DNA from: an uncultured Gammaproteobacteria bacterium
GTDB lineage: Bacteria; Pseudomonadota; Gammaproteobacteria; Nitrosococcales; Methylophagaceae
DNA: 41,666 bases
Direction: 5' to 3'
Assembly: GCA_905479985.1 (NCBI GenBank)
Contig: CAJQOM010000023.1
Span: forward strand, 1 to 41,666
How positions within the stretch are numbered: position 1 is the stretch's first letter; every line of letters starts with the position of its first letter. Shown one piece after another: positions 32,538 through 41,666 of the stretch. The translations under genes were made by a program, and so were the position numbers. The notes beneath the pieces were generated by a model that saw nothing but the letters and a program-made list of their open reading frames with translations, searched no databases and was not told the origin of the DNA.

Positions 32538-32560
32538 ACGACATTTAAAACGAACAAATA

Positions 32561-32595
32561 AAAAGGGCTGATGGTTTTCCATCAGCCCTTTTTTT
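32561..32595. terminator. Bidirectional terminator between eda and the DUF2063 gene
   Basis: A perfect 14-bp stem, AAAAGGGCTGATGG (32561-32574) with CCATCAGCCCTTTT (32579-32592), a TTTT loop and flanking A and T runs. It separates the convergent eda and DUF2063 genes. Confidence 0.95.
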
Positions 32596-32617
32596 ATGCT
32601 TAAGCATTATGTGTTGA

Positions 32618-34857: not shown

Positions 34858-35841
34858 ATGTTTGCCTATATCGTCAGAAGAATTTTATATGCATTTCCAA
34901 TTTTAATTGGCGTGAATGCACTGACGTTTGCGCTATTTTTTATGGTAAATACGCCAGATGACATTGCACGTATGCATCTCGGCAATAAACATATTACACA
35001 GTCGTCATTGGATTCATGGAAAGAAGCCCGTGGTTATGACAAACCTTTATTATGGGCGAGTGAGCAAGACGGGCTGGTTGATAAAGCGACAGAAACGATT
35101 TTCTTTAAAAAGTCATTAAGCCTTTTTGTTTTTGACTTTGGCCAAGCGGACGATGGCCGGGATATTGGTCATGATATTAAAACCCGCATGTGGCCGAGTT
35201 TGGCGATTGCAGTGCCGACATTGATTATTGGCCTGATGGTCAATATTACCTTTGCTTTATTAATGGTGTTTTTTAGGGCGAGTTATGTCGACCTCGGCGG
35301 GGTGATCCTATGCGTCGTCATTATGTCGATCTCGAGTTTATTCTATATCATTGGTGGACAATTCTTAGTCGGCAAGCTGATGCAGTTAGTCCCGGTATCA
35401 GGCTATGGTGAAGGATTAAGTGCGATTAAATTTGTGATCTTGCCGGTGTTAATTGGTGTTGTGGCCGGCATTGGCGGTGGGGCACGCTGGTATCGAACCT
35501 TATTCCTAGAAGAAGCGGCCAAAGATTATGTGAGGACAGCCCGGGCGAAAGGCTTTTCTGAGTTGCAGGTGTTATTTAAACATGTGCTTAAAAATGCGAT
35601 GATTCCTATCTTAACGGGCGTGGTGGTGGTATTACCGACCTTATTTATGGGTAGTCTTATTATCGAATCATTCTTCGGTATTCCCGGTTTAGGCAGTTAC
35701 ACCATTGATGCCATTCAGGCGCAGGATTTTGCCATAGTGCGTGCCATGGTGTTCTTAGGTTCCGTGCTCTATATCATTGGTTTGGTCTTAACGGACTTGT
35801 CTTACACTTTGGTTGACCCACGCGTCAGCATGGATAATTAA
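34858..35841 (+). CDS. OppB/DppB-type ABC transporter permease (lone)
   Basis: The 327-aa inner-membrane protein begins FAYIVRRILYAFPILIGVN, the signature of OppB/DppB-type permeases. A periplasmic loop (about 35-110) and about six helices follow, with the EAA-type ATPase-contact loop AAKDYVRTARAKGFSELQVLFKHVLKNA. It ends FGIPGLGSY ... DPRVSM as usual. The expected second permease (OppC/DppC) is not downstream: a DUF455 gene starts with one base of overlap. No ATPase is nearby. The only family-5 binding protein in the window lies 23 kb away at 9647; a link is possible but unproven. Confidence 0.88.
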   Translation: MFAYIVRRILYAFPILIGVNALTFALFFMVNTPDDIARMHLGNKHITQSSLDSWKEARGYDKPLLWASEQDGLVDKATETIFFKKSLSLFVFDFGQADDGRDIGHDIKTRMWPSLAIAVPTLIIGLMVNITFALLMVFFRASYVDLGGVILCVVIMSISSLFYIIGGQFLVGKLMQLVPVSGYGEGLSAIKFVILPVLIGVVAGIGGGARWYRTLFLEEAAKDYVRTARAKGFSELQVLFKHVLKNAMIPILTGVVVVLPTLFMGSLIIESFFGIPGLGSYTIDAIQAQDFAIVRAMVFLGSVLYIIGLVLTDLSYTLVDPRVSMDN

Positions 35842-36650
35842 TGTCGCAAGAGAACAATGAATTGCGGGCCGCCGCATTAGCCTGTTTATTAAGCCGAGAC
35901 CCAGTCGAAAAAGCCAAACAAACGCAGATACTTTATCAACGATGGTTGCAGGGCGAATTAACCCTATCTAATATGGCAGAATTCGATGTGCCCGATCTAC
36001 CGGGACAACCCGACAAACCTGAGCTTGTTGCACCGCGAGATTTACCGCGACGACGTAATAGTGCAGAAACTGGCGTAGCACCGTTAATTCATGCCGTTAA
36101 TCATATTGAGTTTAATGCGATTAACTTGGCGCTAGATGCCATTGCCCGTTTTCCAGGGCTACCAGAAGCCTACTATGCTGATTGGATGAAAGTCGCTTCT
36201 GAAGAGGCGAAACACTTTACCTTATTACGTGAACACATGATCTCATTGGGTTATGACTATGGCAATTTCCCAGCTCATAATGGCATGTGGGAGATGGCCC
36301 AAAAGACACATCATGATCCGTTGATACGGATGGCTTTGGTGCCACGGGTATTAGAAGCACGGGGCTTAGATGTCACACCGAAAATGATGGACAAACTACG
36401 CGGTACGGGAGACCTACGTGCGGTAGAGATTTTAGAGTTGATTCTGGAAGAAGAAATCGGCCATGTCGGAATAGGCACACGTTGGTTTAATTATTTGTGT
36501 GATCAACGTGGTGTCGATTCGCTAGCCACATTTAAAGACTTGCTTGATAATTACTTCGATGGTCAGTTACGTGGCCCGTTTCATACAGAGGCACGCAAAA
36601 AGGCGGGCTTTACAGATGCAGAAATGGCCCTATTAGAAGGCAGTGCTTAA
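35841..36650 (+). CDS. DUF455 ferritin-like protein
   Basis: The 269-aa protein belongs to DUF455, a ferritin-like helical family with a probable di-iron site. Conserved carboxylate and histidine residues are seen in HAVNHIEFNAINLALDA, ASEEAKHFTLLREHM, PRVLEARGLDV and LILEEEIGHVGIG. These match the ExxH pairs of di-iron carboxylate proteins. Its start overlaps the permease stop by one base (TAATG), so the two are co-translated. No function is established. It converges with rnfH with 6 bases between the stops. Confidence 0.88.
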   Translation: MSQENNELRAAALACLLSRDPVEKAKQTQILYQRWLQGELTLSNMAEFDVPDLPGQPDKPELVAPRDLPRRRNSAETGVAPLIHAVNHIEFNAINLALDAIARFPGLPEAYYADWMKVASEEAKHFTLLREHMISLGYDYGNFPAHNGMWEMAQKTHHDPLIRMALVPRVLEARGLDVTPKMMDKLRGTGDLRAVEILELILEEEIGHVGIGTRWFNYLCDQRGVDSLATFKDLLDNYFDGQLRGPFHTEARKKAGFTDAEMALLEGSA

Positions 36651-36656
36651 GCGGGA

Positions 36657-37001
36657 TTAGTCTTTCGCTTTAGCACTGGCCGTATTGGCTTTTTGTATGT
36701 CTTGTGCGGCTTTCTTGCGTTCCATCTCGACTTTTTGGCGGCGAGATTCTTTCGGATCAGCAATCAACTTACGGTAAATTTCGATTCGGTCTTTATTTTT
36801 TAAACTGGCAGTGAGCTTACACATTTTGCCAAAAATACCGACTTTATCGGTGGCTAGATCAATTTGTGGATAGGCATCTAATACGCCAGAATGCTTAATG
36901 GCTTGTTCAACATCACAGTCGGCTGGCACTTCCAGCTCAAAAATACGCTGTTCATTGGGCAGGGCATAAGCCACTTCAATATGTAAGGTGTTATCTGCCA
37001 T
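36657..37001 (-). CDS. rnfH: RnfH / RatB family protein (UPF0125)
   Basis: A 114-aa ubiquitin-like (beta-grasp) protein: HIEVAYALPNEQRIFELEVP, GIFGKMCKL and DRIEIYRKLIADPKESRR are typical, with a lysine- and alanine-rich tail. The ATG at 37001 lies within the ratA 3' end and overlaps it by 11 bases; a start at 37031 would add ten non-conserved residues. In E. coli the homologue (yfjF) also sits between ratA and bamE. The role is unclear; the ratA-rnfH link is conserved. Confidence 0.9.
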   Translation of the reverse strand: MADNTLHIEVAYALPNEQRIFELEVPADCDVEQAIKHSGVLDAYPQIDLATDKVGIFGKMCKLTASLKNKDRIEIYRKLIADPKESRRQKVEMERKKAAQDIQKANTASAKAKD

Positions 37002-37428
37002 AAGTCTCATTGGCCCGTTTACAAAAGGCATCCACTAATGATCCTGATATTTGGGTGAAAATGGGGCCGAGCGCCATGCTAATCAGCCGGTTTGAAAATT
37101 CAAAATCCATATCTAATTGAACGCGGCAGCCTTGGTTGTCGCCAATCATGACAAATTGCCAATGGCCTTCTAAGTGTTTGAATGGCCCATCGATCAACGC
37201 AATATCAATCGCTTTCCCGGGTGTGAGTTTATTGCGGGTAGAAAACACATGGTGAATGCCACCTTTAGCCAAATCTAATGTGGCACAAATCACTTGGTCA
37301 TCAGCGCTGATGATTTTACTGTCACGACACCATGGTAAAAAGCTTGGGTAAGCTTCAATATCATTGACGAGGTCATACATTTGTTCCGGTGTATACATCA
37401 CCAGGGAGTTACGCGAAATGGTGGTCAT
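36991..37428 (-). CDS. ratA: RatA / Coq10-type START-domain protein
   Basis: A 145-aa START-fold protein with SRNSLVMYTPEQMYDLVNDIEAYPSFLPWC at the start and DFEFSNRLISMALGPIF near the end. In E. coli RatA (yfjG) was reported as an inhibitor of 70S assembly; the fold is that of the ubiquinone-binding Coq10 family, so a role in quinone handling is at least as likely. It lies beside smpB in many gammaproteobacteria; here a transporter gene stands between them. Confidence 0.92.
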   Translation of the reverse strand: MTTISRNSLVMYTPEQMYDLVNDIEAYPSFLPWCRDSKIISADDQVICATLDLAKGGIHHVFSTRNKLTPGKAIDIALIDGPFKHLEGHWQFVMIGDNQGCRVQLDMDFEFSNRLISMALGPIFTQISGSLVDAFCKRANETYGR

Positions 37429-37434
37429 TGTGTC

Positions 37435-38814
37435 CTAAGCTGAGGTGAGATCAATTATGCCAATCATATTTAAGAAGATGATAATAATGGCGATGGGTGA
37501 AATGTAACGAATCAAGAAACGCCAGATGTAATAGATGAAGCCCGGTTTTATTGCAAATTCATCATCTGTTGATTGTTTTGACATTACCCAACCTGCGAAG
37601 ATGGCGATAAACAATCCGCCCAGCGGTAGCAAGATATTGGCCGTGAGATAATCGAGTAGATCAAACAATGTTTTGCCAAACAAAGTCCAATCACTGCCGA
37701 TATTGAAAGAGAACACCGTCAATAAGCCGAGTAGCCAGGTACTGAGTCCAACCATGACAGAGGCACGGCGACGGCTAACGCCTTTGTTTTCTACTAACCA
37801 TGCCACAGCGGGTTCAATCAGAGAAATGGCTGAACTCCATGCGGCAAAAACCAAGAGTAGGAAGAATAAGCCACCATAAAAGGCACCATTGGCCATATGA
37901 CCAAATGCAATGGGTAAAGTGTGGAAAATTAAGCCCGGCCCTGCATTGGTGTCTAAACCATTGGCAAAAACGAGTGGGAATATAGCCAGTCCTGCTAAGA
38001 GTGCGACGCCTGTATCAGCCAATGCAATGGTGATGGACATTTTTAAGATAGAGGCTTCTTTCGGCAGGTAAGAACCGTAAACCATAATGGCGCCCATGCC
38101 TAAACTTAAAGTGAAAAAAGCATGGCCCATTGCTGTTAAAATCGCGTCATTAGTCAGTTTTGAAAAGTCAGGTTTGAATAAAAAGTCGATAGCTTGTTGG
38201 AAATAAGTACCGGTATTTGCTGCGTAACCCACTAATAAAATAAGGATGAATAATAGGGCAGGCATTAAGAATTTAACGCTTTTTTCTAAGCCACCTTGTA
38301 CGCCACGGGCGACGACGATCGTGGTAATAATCATAAAGATAGTATGCCAAGCGAGTAGCCGTTCTGGGTCTTGTACTAAGGCGTTATAAATACTGGTTGC
38401 GCCATCGGCGGTAACACCTTCAAATGTACCGGAGAACAGGCGAAAGACGTAGGCCAGTGCTTGGCCAGCAAAGACGCTGTAATACGATAAAATCAGGAAG
38501 CCCGCGACAACACCCATCCAGCCTAAATATTGCCAGCCGGTATTTTTGCCTTCTTCAACTGCGAGGCTATAGAGGCTATTAACCGGGTTTTGGCGACCAC
38601 GACGGCCGACCATGATTTCTGCCATCATAATTGGCAAGCCGATTAACGCTAAACACGCTAAGTAAACAAGAACAAACGCACCACCACCATTTTCGCCGGT
38701 GATATAAGGAAACTTCCAGATATTACCAAGACCAACAGCAGAACCCGTTGCAGCTAGGATAAATGCCCAGCGTGAAGACCATTGACCGTGGATTGATAGT
38801 GCAGGTCTACTCAT
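37435..38814 (-). CDS. Sodium-dependent transporter, NSS/SNF family
   Basis: A 459-aa protein of the neurotransmitter:sodium symporter (LeuT-like) family with about 11-12 helices. Helix 1 carries the sodium and substrate site GSAVGLGNIWKFPYITGENGGGAF. The next conserved blocks are GLPIMMAEIMVGRRGR and AFFTLSLGMGAIMVYGSY (helix 6 region). The substrate is probably an amino acid or similar zwitterion but cannot be read. The ATG at 38814 is preferred over a GTG at 38829. It lies 6 bases upstream of ratA on the same strand and may be co-transcribed with ratA-rnfH. Confidence 0.9.
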   Translation of the reverse strand: MSRPALSIHGQWSSRWAFILAATGSAVGLGNIWKFPYITGENGGGAFVLVYLACLALIGLPIMMAEIMVGRRGRQNPVNSLYSLAVEEGKNTGWQYLGWMGVVAGFLILSYYSVFAGQALAYVFRLFSGTFEGVTADGATSIYNALVQDPERLLAWHTIFMIITTIVVARGVQGGLEKSVKFLMPALLFILILLVGYAANTGTYFQQAIDFLFKPDFSKLTNDAILTAMGHAFFTLSLGMGAIMVYGSYLPKEASILKMSITIALADTGVALLAGLAIFPLVFANGLDTNAGPGLIFHTLPIAFGHMANGAFYGGLFFLLLVFAAWSSAISLIEPAVAWLVENKGVSRRRASVMVGLSTWLLGLLTVFSFNIGSDWTLFGKTLFDLLDYLTANILLPLGGLFIAIFAGWVMSKQSTDDEFAIKPGFIYYIWRFLIRYISPIAIIIIFLNMIGIIDLTSA

Positions 38815-38853
38815 AATATATTGGTTCACCTAACTAGATTACGTTGAAATAGC

Positions 38854-38869
38854 GACAGTTGTTACTGTC
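38854..38869. promoter_or_regulatory. Small inverted repeat upstream of the NSS transporter
   Basis: GACAGT (38854-38859) and ACTGTC (38864-38869) form a perfect 6-bp repeat with a 4-base centre, about 40 bases before the transporter start. It could be an operator or a leader hairpin. No T-run follows. Confidence 0.4.
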
Positions 38870-39045
38870 AGCTACTCGTGATTTGTTATGTGCCTATACT
38901 AACGATTATGGCGCCATTTTTATACCGTGAATTGTGATTATTTTTCTCAGCTTTCGCGGATTGTGTCGTTTATGAGACAGGGGTCTGATAAATCAGCATG
39001 TGATTAGCCGAGCGATGAACTGCTACGTCATTTATAATAGCGGCC

Positions 39046-39534
39046 ATGGCTACAAAGAAAAGTGCAAAGAAAAAAGGCGCAGGCAATAATATTGCCCAAA
39101 ACCGTCGTGCCCGACATGATTACTTCTTAGAAGATAGTTTTGAAGCAGGTCTGGTATTAGAAGGGTGGGAAGTCAAAAGCCTACGCGATGGTCGTGGCCA
39201 GCTGAATGAAAGCTATGTCCAGCTTCATCAAGGTGAAGCGTGGTTACATGGTTGCCATATCTCACCGATGTTATCGGCCTCCACTCATATCCATCCTGAT
39301 GATATTCGCCGTCGTAAGTTGTTACTGAACCGACTTGAACTTAACCGTTTGATTGGTGCGGTCGACCGAAAGGGCTATACGATTGTGCCGGTTTCAATGT
39401 ATTGGAAGAAGGGCAGAGCCAAACTCGAAATTGCGCTCGCAAAAGGTAAACAACATCACGATAAACGATCAACAGAGAAAGACCGAGATTGGTCACGTGA
39501 GAAGTCTCGGATTATGTCGAGCAAATATAACTAG
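39046..39534 (+). CDS. smpB: SsrA-binding protein SmpB
   Basis: SmpB delivers tmRNA to stalled ribosomes for trans-translation. The 162-aa protein has the conserved [20 protein letters not shown] and [13 protein letters not shown] core (E and N residues that hold tmRNA), [19 protein letters not shown], and the basic tail [15 protein letters not shown] that mimics the mRNA in the decoding centre. The ATG at 39046 gives the standard N-terminus. A -10-like TATAAT at 39033-39038 lies only 7 bases before it and no Shine-Dalgarno is visible. The tmRNA gene is just downstream. Confidence 0.97.
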
Positions 39535-39593
39535 TTCAAATATCATCTCTGTCGTAAAGAGAACCTTTGAATATCTTTGATGACAAATAGCTG

Positions 39594-39599
39594 TATAAT
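39594..39599 (+). promoter_or_regulatory. -10 element of the ssrA promoter
   Basis: A perfect TATAAT 18 bases before the mature tmRNA 5' end; the -35 is weak. It would give a short 5' leader removed by RNase P. Confidence 0.6.
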
Positions 39600-39616
39600 T
39601 GATTAGAACACTTTAA

Positions 39617-39977
39617 GGGGGCGACCTGGCTTCGACGTGGGGTACAAAACTTGAGGTGCATGCCGAGTATGTTAGTTCTCTCGTAAAAAAGACTGACAAA
39701 TTTTAGTTGCAAACGATAACAACTACGCACTAGCAGCTTAATACCCTGTGAATGCCGTCCGACCAAAGCCGTACTTATGCGTTTGGTATCGGGCGTCGAC
39801 TCTCATAAGTAAAGCCTGAAACGTGCTTGGCGTTGATGGACAAAAATCTTATCAAGATCGCGACTTGTTTTCCCTGTTCATCGGGTAGCTTGCCGTTAAA
39901 CTAATAGATGAAATAAGCATGTAGATCTGATAGCGGAGGTCTTGCGGACGGGGGTTCGATTCCCCCCGCCTCCACCA
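39617..39977 (+). ncRNA. ssrA: Transfer-messenger RNA (tmRNA)
   Basis: A one-piece tmRNA of 361 bases. The tRNA-like acceptor stem is GGGGGCG (39617-39623) with CGCCTCC (39967-39973), then A and encoded CCA. The T-arm GGGGGTTCGATTCCCCC is near the 3' end and the conserved GGCTTCGACG near the 5' end. The tag frame at 39709-39741 encodes ANDNNYALAA and a TAA stop, ending in the ALAA degradation signal. It works with SmpB, encoded 82 bases upstream, in rescuing stalled ribosomes. Confidence 0.97.
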
Positions 39978-39986
39978 AATACTAAG

Positions 39987-40010
39987 AAACCACCTTCGGG
40001 TGGTTTTTTT
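39987..40010 (+). terminator. Rho-independent terminator of ssrA
   Basis: AAACCACC (39987-39994) pairs with GGTGGTTT (39999-40006) around a stable TTCG tetraloop, followed by a T-run. Confidence 0.95.
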
Positions 40011-40045
40011 GTGGCTGTTTATATTAAAACTAACCGTATTTTCCC

Positions 40046-40966
40046 CTATTGGTTATCTTGTTTTGATGTCATTCGTTTAGCCCATGATTGATAATTTTCT
40101 GATTGCCAACAGGTGCTGGCATCACCGCCAACATGAGCAATGGCCATGTTGGTGAATGCACCCTGATGTATATCAGCGATAGGGCCTATAGCGATCATAT
40201 CTTCATGCCTGAAGGTTTTAGTTTTATTTAACTGGTCGATTTCCCGTATTGATATTCTGTTACTGCCAAAGATAATGAGCGGTTGCTCAAGTGATTGTTT
40301 TAGCCGTGGCAGGGCATTCAAGTCATCTAACTGGTTGACGGCATTGATTTGGATGCCAGATTGTAATAATAAGCCATAAAATAACCAATAATCTAAGGTG
40401 GTGAGTCGATTATCTAGATTTACTAACCAGCAATGAGCGCGTGGTTTTTGTTTATCTGCACGCAAGGTCATAACGGTTATTTGGCGTTGCCAACATTGTT
40501 GCCAAAGTTGCTTTTCCAATTGATGCCCTAGCGGTTCACTTTGCCAACGCGTCATTAATTGACGTGAAAGTGGTTGATATACCTTTTCACATAAGCTGAT
40601 AAAAGGCATCGATTTATTGAGCTTATCGAGTAAAGGGTTCAGGCTTCTTTGCTTGAGCTCGATAAGCGTGCTTAATAATTCTTGCTGCACTTGTTGCCAT
40701 GATTCATCATCTTCACTCACTTGCACTGTTGCTTCAATCGTACTGAGCAGTGCAGCGACCTTACTAATTGTTACGCCGCGATTCAACCAACTAACAATTT
40801 GCCTGATTTCTGCTATATCAGCCTCACTATATAAGCGATGACCTTTAGGCGTTCTTTGTGGCTTTATGAGTCCATAACGGCGTTCCCAGGCGCGTAGCGT
40901 CACTGCTGCGACGCCTGTTTCTTGGGAAACTTCGCTTATGTTTACGTATTCTTTAGATTTCATCAT
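40046..40966 (-). CDS. MerR-family regulator, LitR/CarH-like
   Basis: The 306-aa protein has an N-terminal MerR winged helix-turn-helix (NISEVSQETGVAAVTLRAWERRYGLIKPQRTPKGHRLY, about 8-46) with the WERRYGL and RxxxGHRLY motifs of the MlrA/CarH/LitR branch. A long C-terminal region follows that resembles the cobalamin-binding-type fold of that branch. The cobalamin-ligating DxHxxG motif is not seen, so B12 binding is doubtful; class II LitR proteins also lack it. It is divergent from the hydroxylase-like gene at 41188. A 32-bp palindrome in the gap overlaps its own predicted -35, which suggests autoregulation. The start could be either of two adjacent ATGs (40966 or 40963). Confidence 0.82.
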   Translation of the reverse strand: MMKSKEYVNISEVSQETGVAAVTLRAWERRYGLIKPQRTPKGHRLYSEADIAEIRQIVSWLNRGVTISKVAALLSTIEATVQVSEDDESWQQVQQELLSTLIELKQRSLNPLLDKLNKSMPFISLCEKVYQPLSRQLMTRWQSEPLGHQLEKQLWQQCWQRQITVMTLRADKQKPRAHCWLVNLDNRLTTLDYWLFYGLLLQSGIQINAVNQLDDLNALPRLKQSLEQPLIIFGSNRISIREIDQLNKTKTFRHEDMIAIGPIADIHQGAFTNMAIAHVGGDASTCWQSENYQSWAKRMTSKQDNQ

Positions 40967-40994
40967 TTTTACAATTACATCCTGATTTTTTAAT

Positions 40995-41023
40995 AGAATA
41001 GCAATTTCTTCTTACTTATACAA
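40995..41023 (-). promoter_or_regulatory. Promoter of the MerR/LitR-like gene
   Basis: On the minus strand there is TTGTAT (41023-41018), 17 bases, and TATTCT (41000-40995), 29 bases before the ATG. The -35 lies inside the left arm of the palindrome at 41013-41044, so a bound regulator would occlude it. Confidence 0.5.
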
Positions 41024-41044
41024 AATTGATTATTTGTATAAGTA
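41013..41044. promoter_or_regulatory. 32-bp operator-like palindrome between the regulator and hydroxylase genes
   Basis: Two perfect 12-bp arms, TACTTATACAAA (41013-41024) and TTTGTATAAGTA (41033-41044), flank an 8-base centre. Within it TATACA (41017-41022) and TGTATA (41035-41040) are 12 bases apart. As I recall, this is the spacing and sequence reported for class II LitR boxes in Pseudomonas. It is the probable binding site of the adjacent MerR protein. Confidence 0.7.
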
Positions 41045-41048
41045 CGTA

Positions 41049-41077
41049 TTTTCAATACGGCTCATCCTGATTAAAAT
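41049..41077 (+). promoter_or_regulatory. Candidate promoter of the hydroxylase-like gene
   Basis: TTTTCA (41049-41054), 17 bases, TAAAAT (41072-41077). It starts 5 bases beyond the palindrome. The roughly 100-base leader that follows holds further small symmetric elements (GGTTA-A-TAACC at 41100-41110; GTTAAAA/TTTTAAC at 41112-41127). Confidence 0.4.
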
Positions 41078-41141
41078 AGCACCGTAGTTAGAAATGTAGG
41101 GTTAATAACCAGTTAAAAGTTTTTAACCATAGATATCTGAT

Positions 41142-41217
41142 TCTAGTAGTAAATATAACAATACTCTATTTTAAGGGGAGTTTTATCATGAAAAAGCTTT
41201 TAGTTAACATCCGATAC
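41142..41217 (+). repeat. Left arm of a perfect 76-bp inverted repeat
   Basis: Bases 41142-41217 are the exact reverse complement of 41591-41666, the last 76 bases of the window. The arm covers the leader, the ribosome site AAGGGGAG and the first ten codons of the hydroxylase-like gene. Identity is 76 of 76, checked base by base; the pairing breaks at 41218/41590. The 373 bases between the arms are unique. Confidence 0.97.
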
Positions 41218-41604
41218 TGGCTAGCGCCGGTACTAATCCTTGTGACGCTATTAAGTATCATAATGGGTGGCATGTTTGTATGGGTCGGCGTAGCGTTGTT
41301 TGGCGTCGGCATCATCCTAGACACTGTCACTATGCCTTTCCACCCACCGGGTGCAGGCTTCGATGAAAACGGCGAAACAATGGGTATGCCAGCATTACAA
41401 AATGCTGTTATGTACGTTATGTTACCCGTATTTGCTTTACTGCAAGTCGCATTAGCATGGCGTGTTATGCAATATGTTGATGGTGCTGCAATTGGTGAAG
41501 CAACAATGGTTGGTATGCTACCGTTCCAATTAAGTGGTATTACTGGTCTTGAGTTAGTTGGTGCTGCAATTTCTACTGGTATCTTCGCAGGTATCGGATG
41601 TTAA
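41188..41604 (+). CDS. N-terminal fragment of an AlkB/XylM-like membrane hydroxylase (truncated)
   Basis: The reading frame gives 138 aa with about four hydrophobic segments. The start, YWLAPVLILVTLLSIIMGG then FVWVGVALFGVGIILD, resembles the N-terminus of xylene/alkane monooxygenases (XylM: RYYLIPV ... GGYWVWLGA). These are non-heme di-iron integral-membrane hydroxylases with three histidine boxes. This frame stops (GIGC-stop) just where AlkB proteins continue into the first box (N-T-G-H-E), because it runs into the inverted copy of its own start at 41591. The last five codons and the stop are therefore repeat sequence. A strong AAGGGGAG lies 7 bases before the ATG. Family assignment is moderate without the histidine boxes. 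Confidence 0.65.
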   Translation: MKKLLVNIRYWLAPVLILVTLLSIIMGGMFVWVGVALFGVGIILDTVTMPFHPPGAGFDENGETMGMPALQNAVMYVMLPVFALLQVALAWRVMQYVDGAAIGEATMVGMLPFQLSGITGLELVGAAISTGIFAGIGC

Positions 41605-41666
41605 CTAAAAGCTTTTTCATGATAAAACTCCCCTTAAAATAGAGTATTGTTATATTTACTACTAGA
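41591..41666 (-). repeat. Right arm of the 76-bp inverted repeat, at the window end
   Basis: Exact reverse complement of 41142-41217; it ends with the window, so the repeat could be longer. It carries a second, leftward copy of the hydroxylase leader, ribosome site and first ten codons pointing back at the first. Confidence 0.97.

Follow-up and report, generated by a model that had tools for sequence, protein, structure and literature searches.

De Bruijn assemblies break their contigs at near-identical paralogues. Inverted joins have also been described from chimeric DNA molecules, for which two accounts come close to the locus presented here. In the portion of the MDA study considered here, 406 of the 475 chimeras were inverted, the complementary stretches reached up to 21 nt, and the same molecule was favoured (PMC1855051). 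The account of library end repair on which we draw in part puts forward, as a hypothesis, that chimeras form via short reverse-complementary stretches, and its SimFFPE/FilterFFPE simulation gives the seed a length of 6 nt on average (PMC8458033).

The window, i.e., the whole 41,666-nt stretch of DNA analysed here, is the complete contig C23, one of the 46 contigs of a 2.21-Mb genome listed as 99.85% complete. Since the window is the whole of C23, the second arm of the inverted repeat found at its end constitutes the last 76 bases of the contig. We propose that this terminal repeat very probably reflects no chromosomal structure, but a fold-back chimera that a short-read assembly retained at one of its dead ends.

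The terminal repeat and the gene it interrupts

Read in reverse complement, bases 41591-41666 match 41142-41217 exactly over 76 nt (76/76), the two arms being separated by a spacer of 373 nt. Chance can be taken as excluded for a perfect inverted match of 76 nt. Apart from it, just one inverted repeat reaching 20 nt, with arms no more than 3 kb apart, was reported for the window: an imperfect 20-nt hairpin at 32555-32598. The heptamer GTATCGG (41591-41597) can be read as part of the native gene or of the inverted arm, and because it is common to both, only the 69 nt from 41598 to 41666 are foreign to the forward strand. Its complement CCGATAC is found a single time within 40001-41597, and this 7-nt microhomology (GTATCGG/CCGATAC) sits at the strand switch. 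The arm matches the leader of C23 itself at 76/76 nt, whereas the leader of the related copy on contig C34 is ~79% alike over 68 nt, which points to the C23 locus itself as the template of the fold-back. The features are collected in Table 1.

Table 1. Features of contig C23 discussed in the text
Feature	Positions	Strand
Regulator of the MerR family, divergent from alkB; in relative G018, its homologue adjoins an intact alkB with downstream genes of the C12 type	40046-40966	-
Native arm and proposed fold-back template: leader, ribosome-binding region and first 10 codons of the alkB-like gene	41142-41217	+
Native 5' part of the alkB-like (PF00487-family) gene, 136 codons + 2 nt	41188-41597	+
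Probably spurious 138-aa open reading frame, ending GIGC-stop inside the inverted arm	41188-41604	+
CCGATAC, proposed same-strand annealing site for the 3' end GTATCGG	41211-41217	+
7-nt microhomology GTATCGG, proposed strand-switch point	41591-41597	+
Inverted copy, almost certainly artefactual, 69 nt, reverse complement of 41142-41210, up to the contig end	41598-41666	-

The interrupted gene could be assigned through its relatives. Pfam returned no match for the window fragment alone, and the fragment is placed in the fatty-acid desaturase family PF00487 because its longer homologues on C34 and C8 match that family; NCBIfam returned no match for the three alkB proteins. The name alkB (alkB-like membrane hydroxylase) is one that we presume from the PF00487-type family. 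At 41598 the C23 frame turns into the inverted leader, and it meets a stop codon at 41602-41604. Beyond 41597, C34 continues as ...GGTATCGGTATCATTTACGGCCATGAG, and this continuation GIIYGHELSHTKG (GIIYGHELSH...) carries a histidine box of the expected kind. The copies on C34 and C8, both copies of the relative G018 and the G011 copy on its own C21 all continue with GIIYGHEL, leading into GHELSH or GHELAH.

Most of what a preliminary description had read at this contig end is borne out. The perfect 76-bp inverted repeat is present with arms that are 100% complementary, and the run GCAGGTATCGG at 41587-41597 is as described. The cut in the gene, which had been placed at codon 134/135, lies slightly further, the gene being native up to 41597. 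The same description had the cut fall just before the expected histidine box and had suggested following a homologue past codon 134; the continuation of the five homologues into the box agrees with this, the GHELSH motif directly following in the sister copy.

Copies of alkB and the assembly graph around C23

Five alkB-family pieces were found in the genome: a complete gene of 392 aa on C8, aa 1-354 on C34, reaching the last base of that contig, aa 1-136 on C23, and aa 308-392 on each of C12 and C21, starting from the first bases of both contigs. Over the 410 nt that lead from the start codon up to 41597, 22 positions distinguish C23 from C34; 17 of them fall within the initial 141 bases and the last is 41577, so that the two are identical over 41578-41597. 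The distance from the last C23/C34 difference to the end of C34 is 678 bases, and C23 is comparable over the first 20 of these only. At the other side of the gene, C12 and C21 are identical over 258 bases of the gene except for base 142, and in the stretch compared they are unlike past the stop codon.

The copies are thus near-identical within the coding region, whereas their surroundings are unlike, both for the two copies of this genome and, likewise, in G018. The G018 copies are 98.3% identical, and the longer copies from different species that were compared differ by ~13-21%. To judge from these alignments, this looks like gene conversion keeping the alkB copies alike.

We then compared both ends of the 46 contigs which, with two contigs reading as N set aside, gave 88 readable ends. 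Exact overlaps between ends were mostly of 141 nt (15 end-to-end and 9 same-direction pairs) and involved 39 of the 88 ends; four further overlaps measured 61 to 62 nt, all of them with one end of C14. Such fixed overlaps of 141 nt are what a de Bruijn graph assembler with a final k of 141 leaves behind. Moreover, record names beginning with k141_, a prefix that we take to be that of MEGAHIT, occur at 4 of 8 loci of relatives (three relatives). The last 141 nt of C34 recur exactly at the start of C12 and also at that of C21, and the fixed-k overlaps at the C34, C12 and C21 ends mark a MEGAHIT-like (k=141) contig break at a repeat. Altogether, the pieces read as a graph tangle in which two 5' ends (C23 and C34) lead into one shared middle and out to two 3' ends (C12 and C21).

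The end of C23 has no 141-nt overlap with any of the other 87 ends, which argues for a chimeric dead end instead of a plain repeat end. We had considered that the figure of 76 might itself be an assembler overlap (k-1 with k=77), and this was ruled out by the contig ends, which show 141. Hence, 76 is merely where the chimeric sequence stops, and the halt of the arm at 76 nt although k was 141 suggests that the reads ended there.

The same graph bears on an error of the assembler alone, in which an iteration at small k would have joined the two strands via a short shared word and no chimeric molecule would have existed. An iterative de Bruijn assembler typically leaves a k=141 signature of this kind, and a 7-nt word is indeed common to both sides of the joint, but 7 bases are far below the smallest usual k. 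The smallest k normally used is 21, so a graph jump would hardly be possible without a read joining the two parts, and we regard this explanation as very unlikely.

Gene starts and gene order in related genomes

Positions 40900-41590 were searched against 59 genomes, this one included, with matches in 10, and across these 59 genomes no locus gave a second, inverted match to the leader except the window with its own arm. The leader was also examined in 35 overlapping stretches corresponding to 15 distinct gene starts, 13 of which belong to six relatives and the other two to C8 and C34 here. At all 15, the leader or gene start occurs once and in gene orientation; it occurs twice only in the window. 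Eight of these starts run well past codon 136 and thus bear on the fold-back place itself, and the others break off at or before about that place, where a contig is nearly at its end.

Two alternatives named in the preliminary description fare poorly against these data. The first is an invertible segment, serving as a promoter or coding switch and bounded by the 76-nt arms, as perfect arms 373 nt apart might suggest. The segment between the arms is, however, gene interior: flipping 41218-41590 would only scramble alkB codons 11-134 and would move no promoter. Moreover, no recombinase was found in the seven Pfam-searched genes of the window (34858-40966) or recognised by eye in its other open frames, and a single arm is present at the 15 gene starts of relatives and paralogues examined. 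The second is a pair of head-to-head alkB copies, for which the arm would be a gene start pointing the opposite way. No second inverted start is present at either intact G018 locus (10-kb stretches), none of the five alkB pieces in the genome is the remainder of such a copy, and the gene order of G018, set out below, leads from the 5' part on C23 to the 3' part on C12. With no inverted leader in the relatives searched, we give the invertible segment a negligible probability, and head-to-head copies appear just as implausible. The reading that had been put first in that description, a fold-back chimera or a contig-end assembly error with microhomology at the Gly-Ile-Gly run, fits the evidence.

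The relative G018 carries two intact alkB copies ~76 kb apart on a single contig of 918,716 bases. At locus 1, what we take to be CoxE-like and MoxR-like ATPase genes stand upstream, and a GST-like gene and a 2Fe-2S/FAD reductase, both named through their family-searched C21 homologues, stand downstream. At locus 2, a MerR regulator and a presumed photolyase-like gene lie upstream, with one extra gene between MerR and alkB that is absent from C23, and the copy is followed by a reductase and by what are presumably an SDR-like protein and an FAD oxidoreductase.

We compared the genes at the contig ends with two 10-kb G018 stretches by BLASTP. The three C34 upstream genes (78-96% identity) and the C21 GST (88%) match G018 locus 1 only, and the C23 MerR (70%) and the C12 SDR-like and FAD proteins (73% and 81%) match locus 2 only. 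The C21 reductase (75% for locus 1, 74% for locus 2) and the C12 ferredoxin (75% and 72%, respectively) do not discriminate, and the alkB parts match both loci, the C23 part equally. The locus-specific matches thus pair C34 with C21 and C23 with C12.

Two further observations concern these neighbourhoods. At C12 (L022 411-725) there is a lone 104-aa ferredoxin (Fer2) where G018 has a 357-aa ferredoxin-reductase, and by this comparison the reductase part seems to have been lost at the C12 locus. Between the divergent MerR regulator and alkB of C23, positions 41017-41040 form a 24-nt palindrome, TATACAA-N10-TTGTATA, followed by AGTACGTATT, and the same form occurs near alkB starts of G018 (both loci), G011, G012 and G022, mostly with TACGTAT two bases on. 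In the stretches holding the C34 and C8 copies, as in those of G012 C13 and G016 C20, the strict pattern was not found. The palindrome of C23 is probably a MerR binding site. Elsewhere in the window, a tmRNA gene (39617-39977, tag ANDNNYALAA) adjoins smpB (39046-39534) and is ordinary.

The gene order also weighs on the idea that the inverted duplication is real, the alkB on the MerR side being truncated at codon 136 and followed by its own inverted leader, which would run past the contig end. Closely spaced inverted duplications do arise in genomes via microhomology, and both the perfect repeat and the microhomology at the joint would be in keeping with one here. Such a duplication would, however, leave the C12 3' end without a 5' partner other than the one already used for C21, and the homologous locus is intact in G018, with no inverted leader in the relatives searched. 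Moreover, at k=141 a real arm would be expected to extend beyond 76 nt, either into new sequence or into a 141-nt overlap, and neither is present. We therefore consider a real duplication highly improbable. A variant of this idea is that part of the population carries a microhomology-made inverted duplication truncating one of the homogenised alkB copies, which would amount to a natural on/off variant of one alkane hydroxylase; we give this only the slimmest of chances.

Proposed origin of the arm, consequences and comparison with described systems

We propose a model of the fold-back chimera based on the following steps: (i) the 3' end ...GTATCGG (41591-41597) would fold onto its own strand and pair with CCGATAC (41211-41217) in a snap-back, (ii) the extension primed in this way would copy 41210 back to 41142, yielding exactly the arm that is seen, and (iii) the chimeric read would be retained where the assembly graph has a dead end. 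As the shared alkB middle was assembled with C34, C23 would have lost its true continuation; its true path would run from C23 through the shared alkB middle to C12, as the gene order in one relative suggests. The marks of a snap-back artefact are found together at this joint, namely, a nearby reverse complement on the same strand, a short complementarity at the joint, and a different continuation in independent copies. One counter-point is that, at k=141, C23 would be expected to follow its true path for ~141 nt past the last difference (41577), whereas it turns at 41598.

Concerning the step of origin, ordinary library preparation would do as well as amplification. The C23 end is the only fold-back among the 88 readable contig ends, so a general amplification or chimera signature is not demonstrated for the assembly, and one folded end in 88 does not suggest heavy amplification.

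The arm at the contig end is almost certainly an artefact, to be trimmed and not interpreted. Annotation should not treat the 138-aa frame at 41188-41604 or the 76-bp hairpin as a truncated gene or regulatory element. Beyond this locus, the alkB family was found in 9 of the 29 genomes of the genus (E <= 1e-20), with 28 matches, 15 of them partial, and 11 of these 15 lie at contig ends. As partial matches are mostly at contig ends, assemblies of this genus regularly break in alkB, and since near-identical copies break assemblies, counts of alkB genes in MAGs need care. Multiple alkB copies are reported for North Atlantic MAGs in the part of the literature consulted (PMC10654063).

Compared with the break of contigs at paralogues, the locus is alike in its two 5' ends, shared middle, two 3' ends and exact 141-nt overlaps, and differs in that one 5' end closes here in a fold-back instead of a 141-nt overlap. 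It is this closure that the chimeras described elsewhere resemble. With the MDA inverted chimeras (Lasken and Stockwell 2007, PMC1855051), to the extent of the portion considered, it has in common the inverted join, the close arms and the skipped spacer, as well as the short complementary stretch at the joint and a template on the same molecule; unlike those, it is a single joint in 88 readable ends, and phi29 amplification of this sample is hypothetical. The SimFFPE/FilterFFPE chimeras, as characterised in the part of that work drawn on here (PMC8458033), are described, partly as a hypothesis, for formalin-fixed samples and are seen in reads, whereas here the chimera is seen in a contig; they are alike in that single strands pair by way of a short seed, often on the same strand, with an inverted repeat as a possible outcome.
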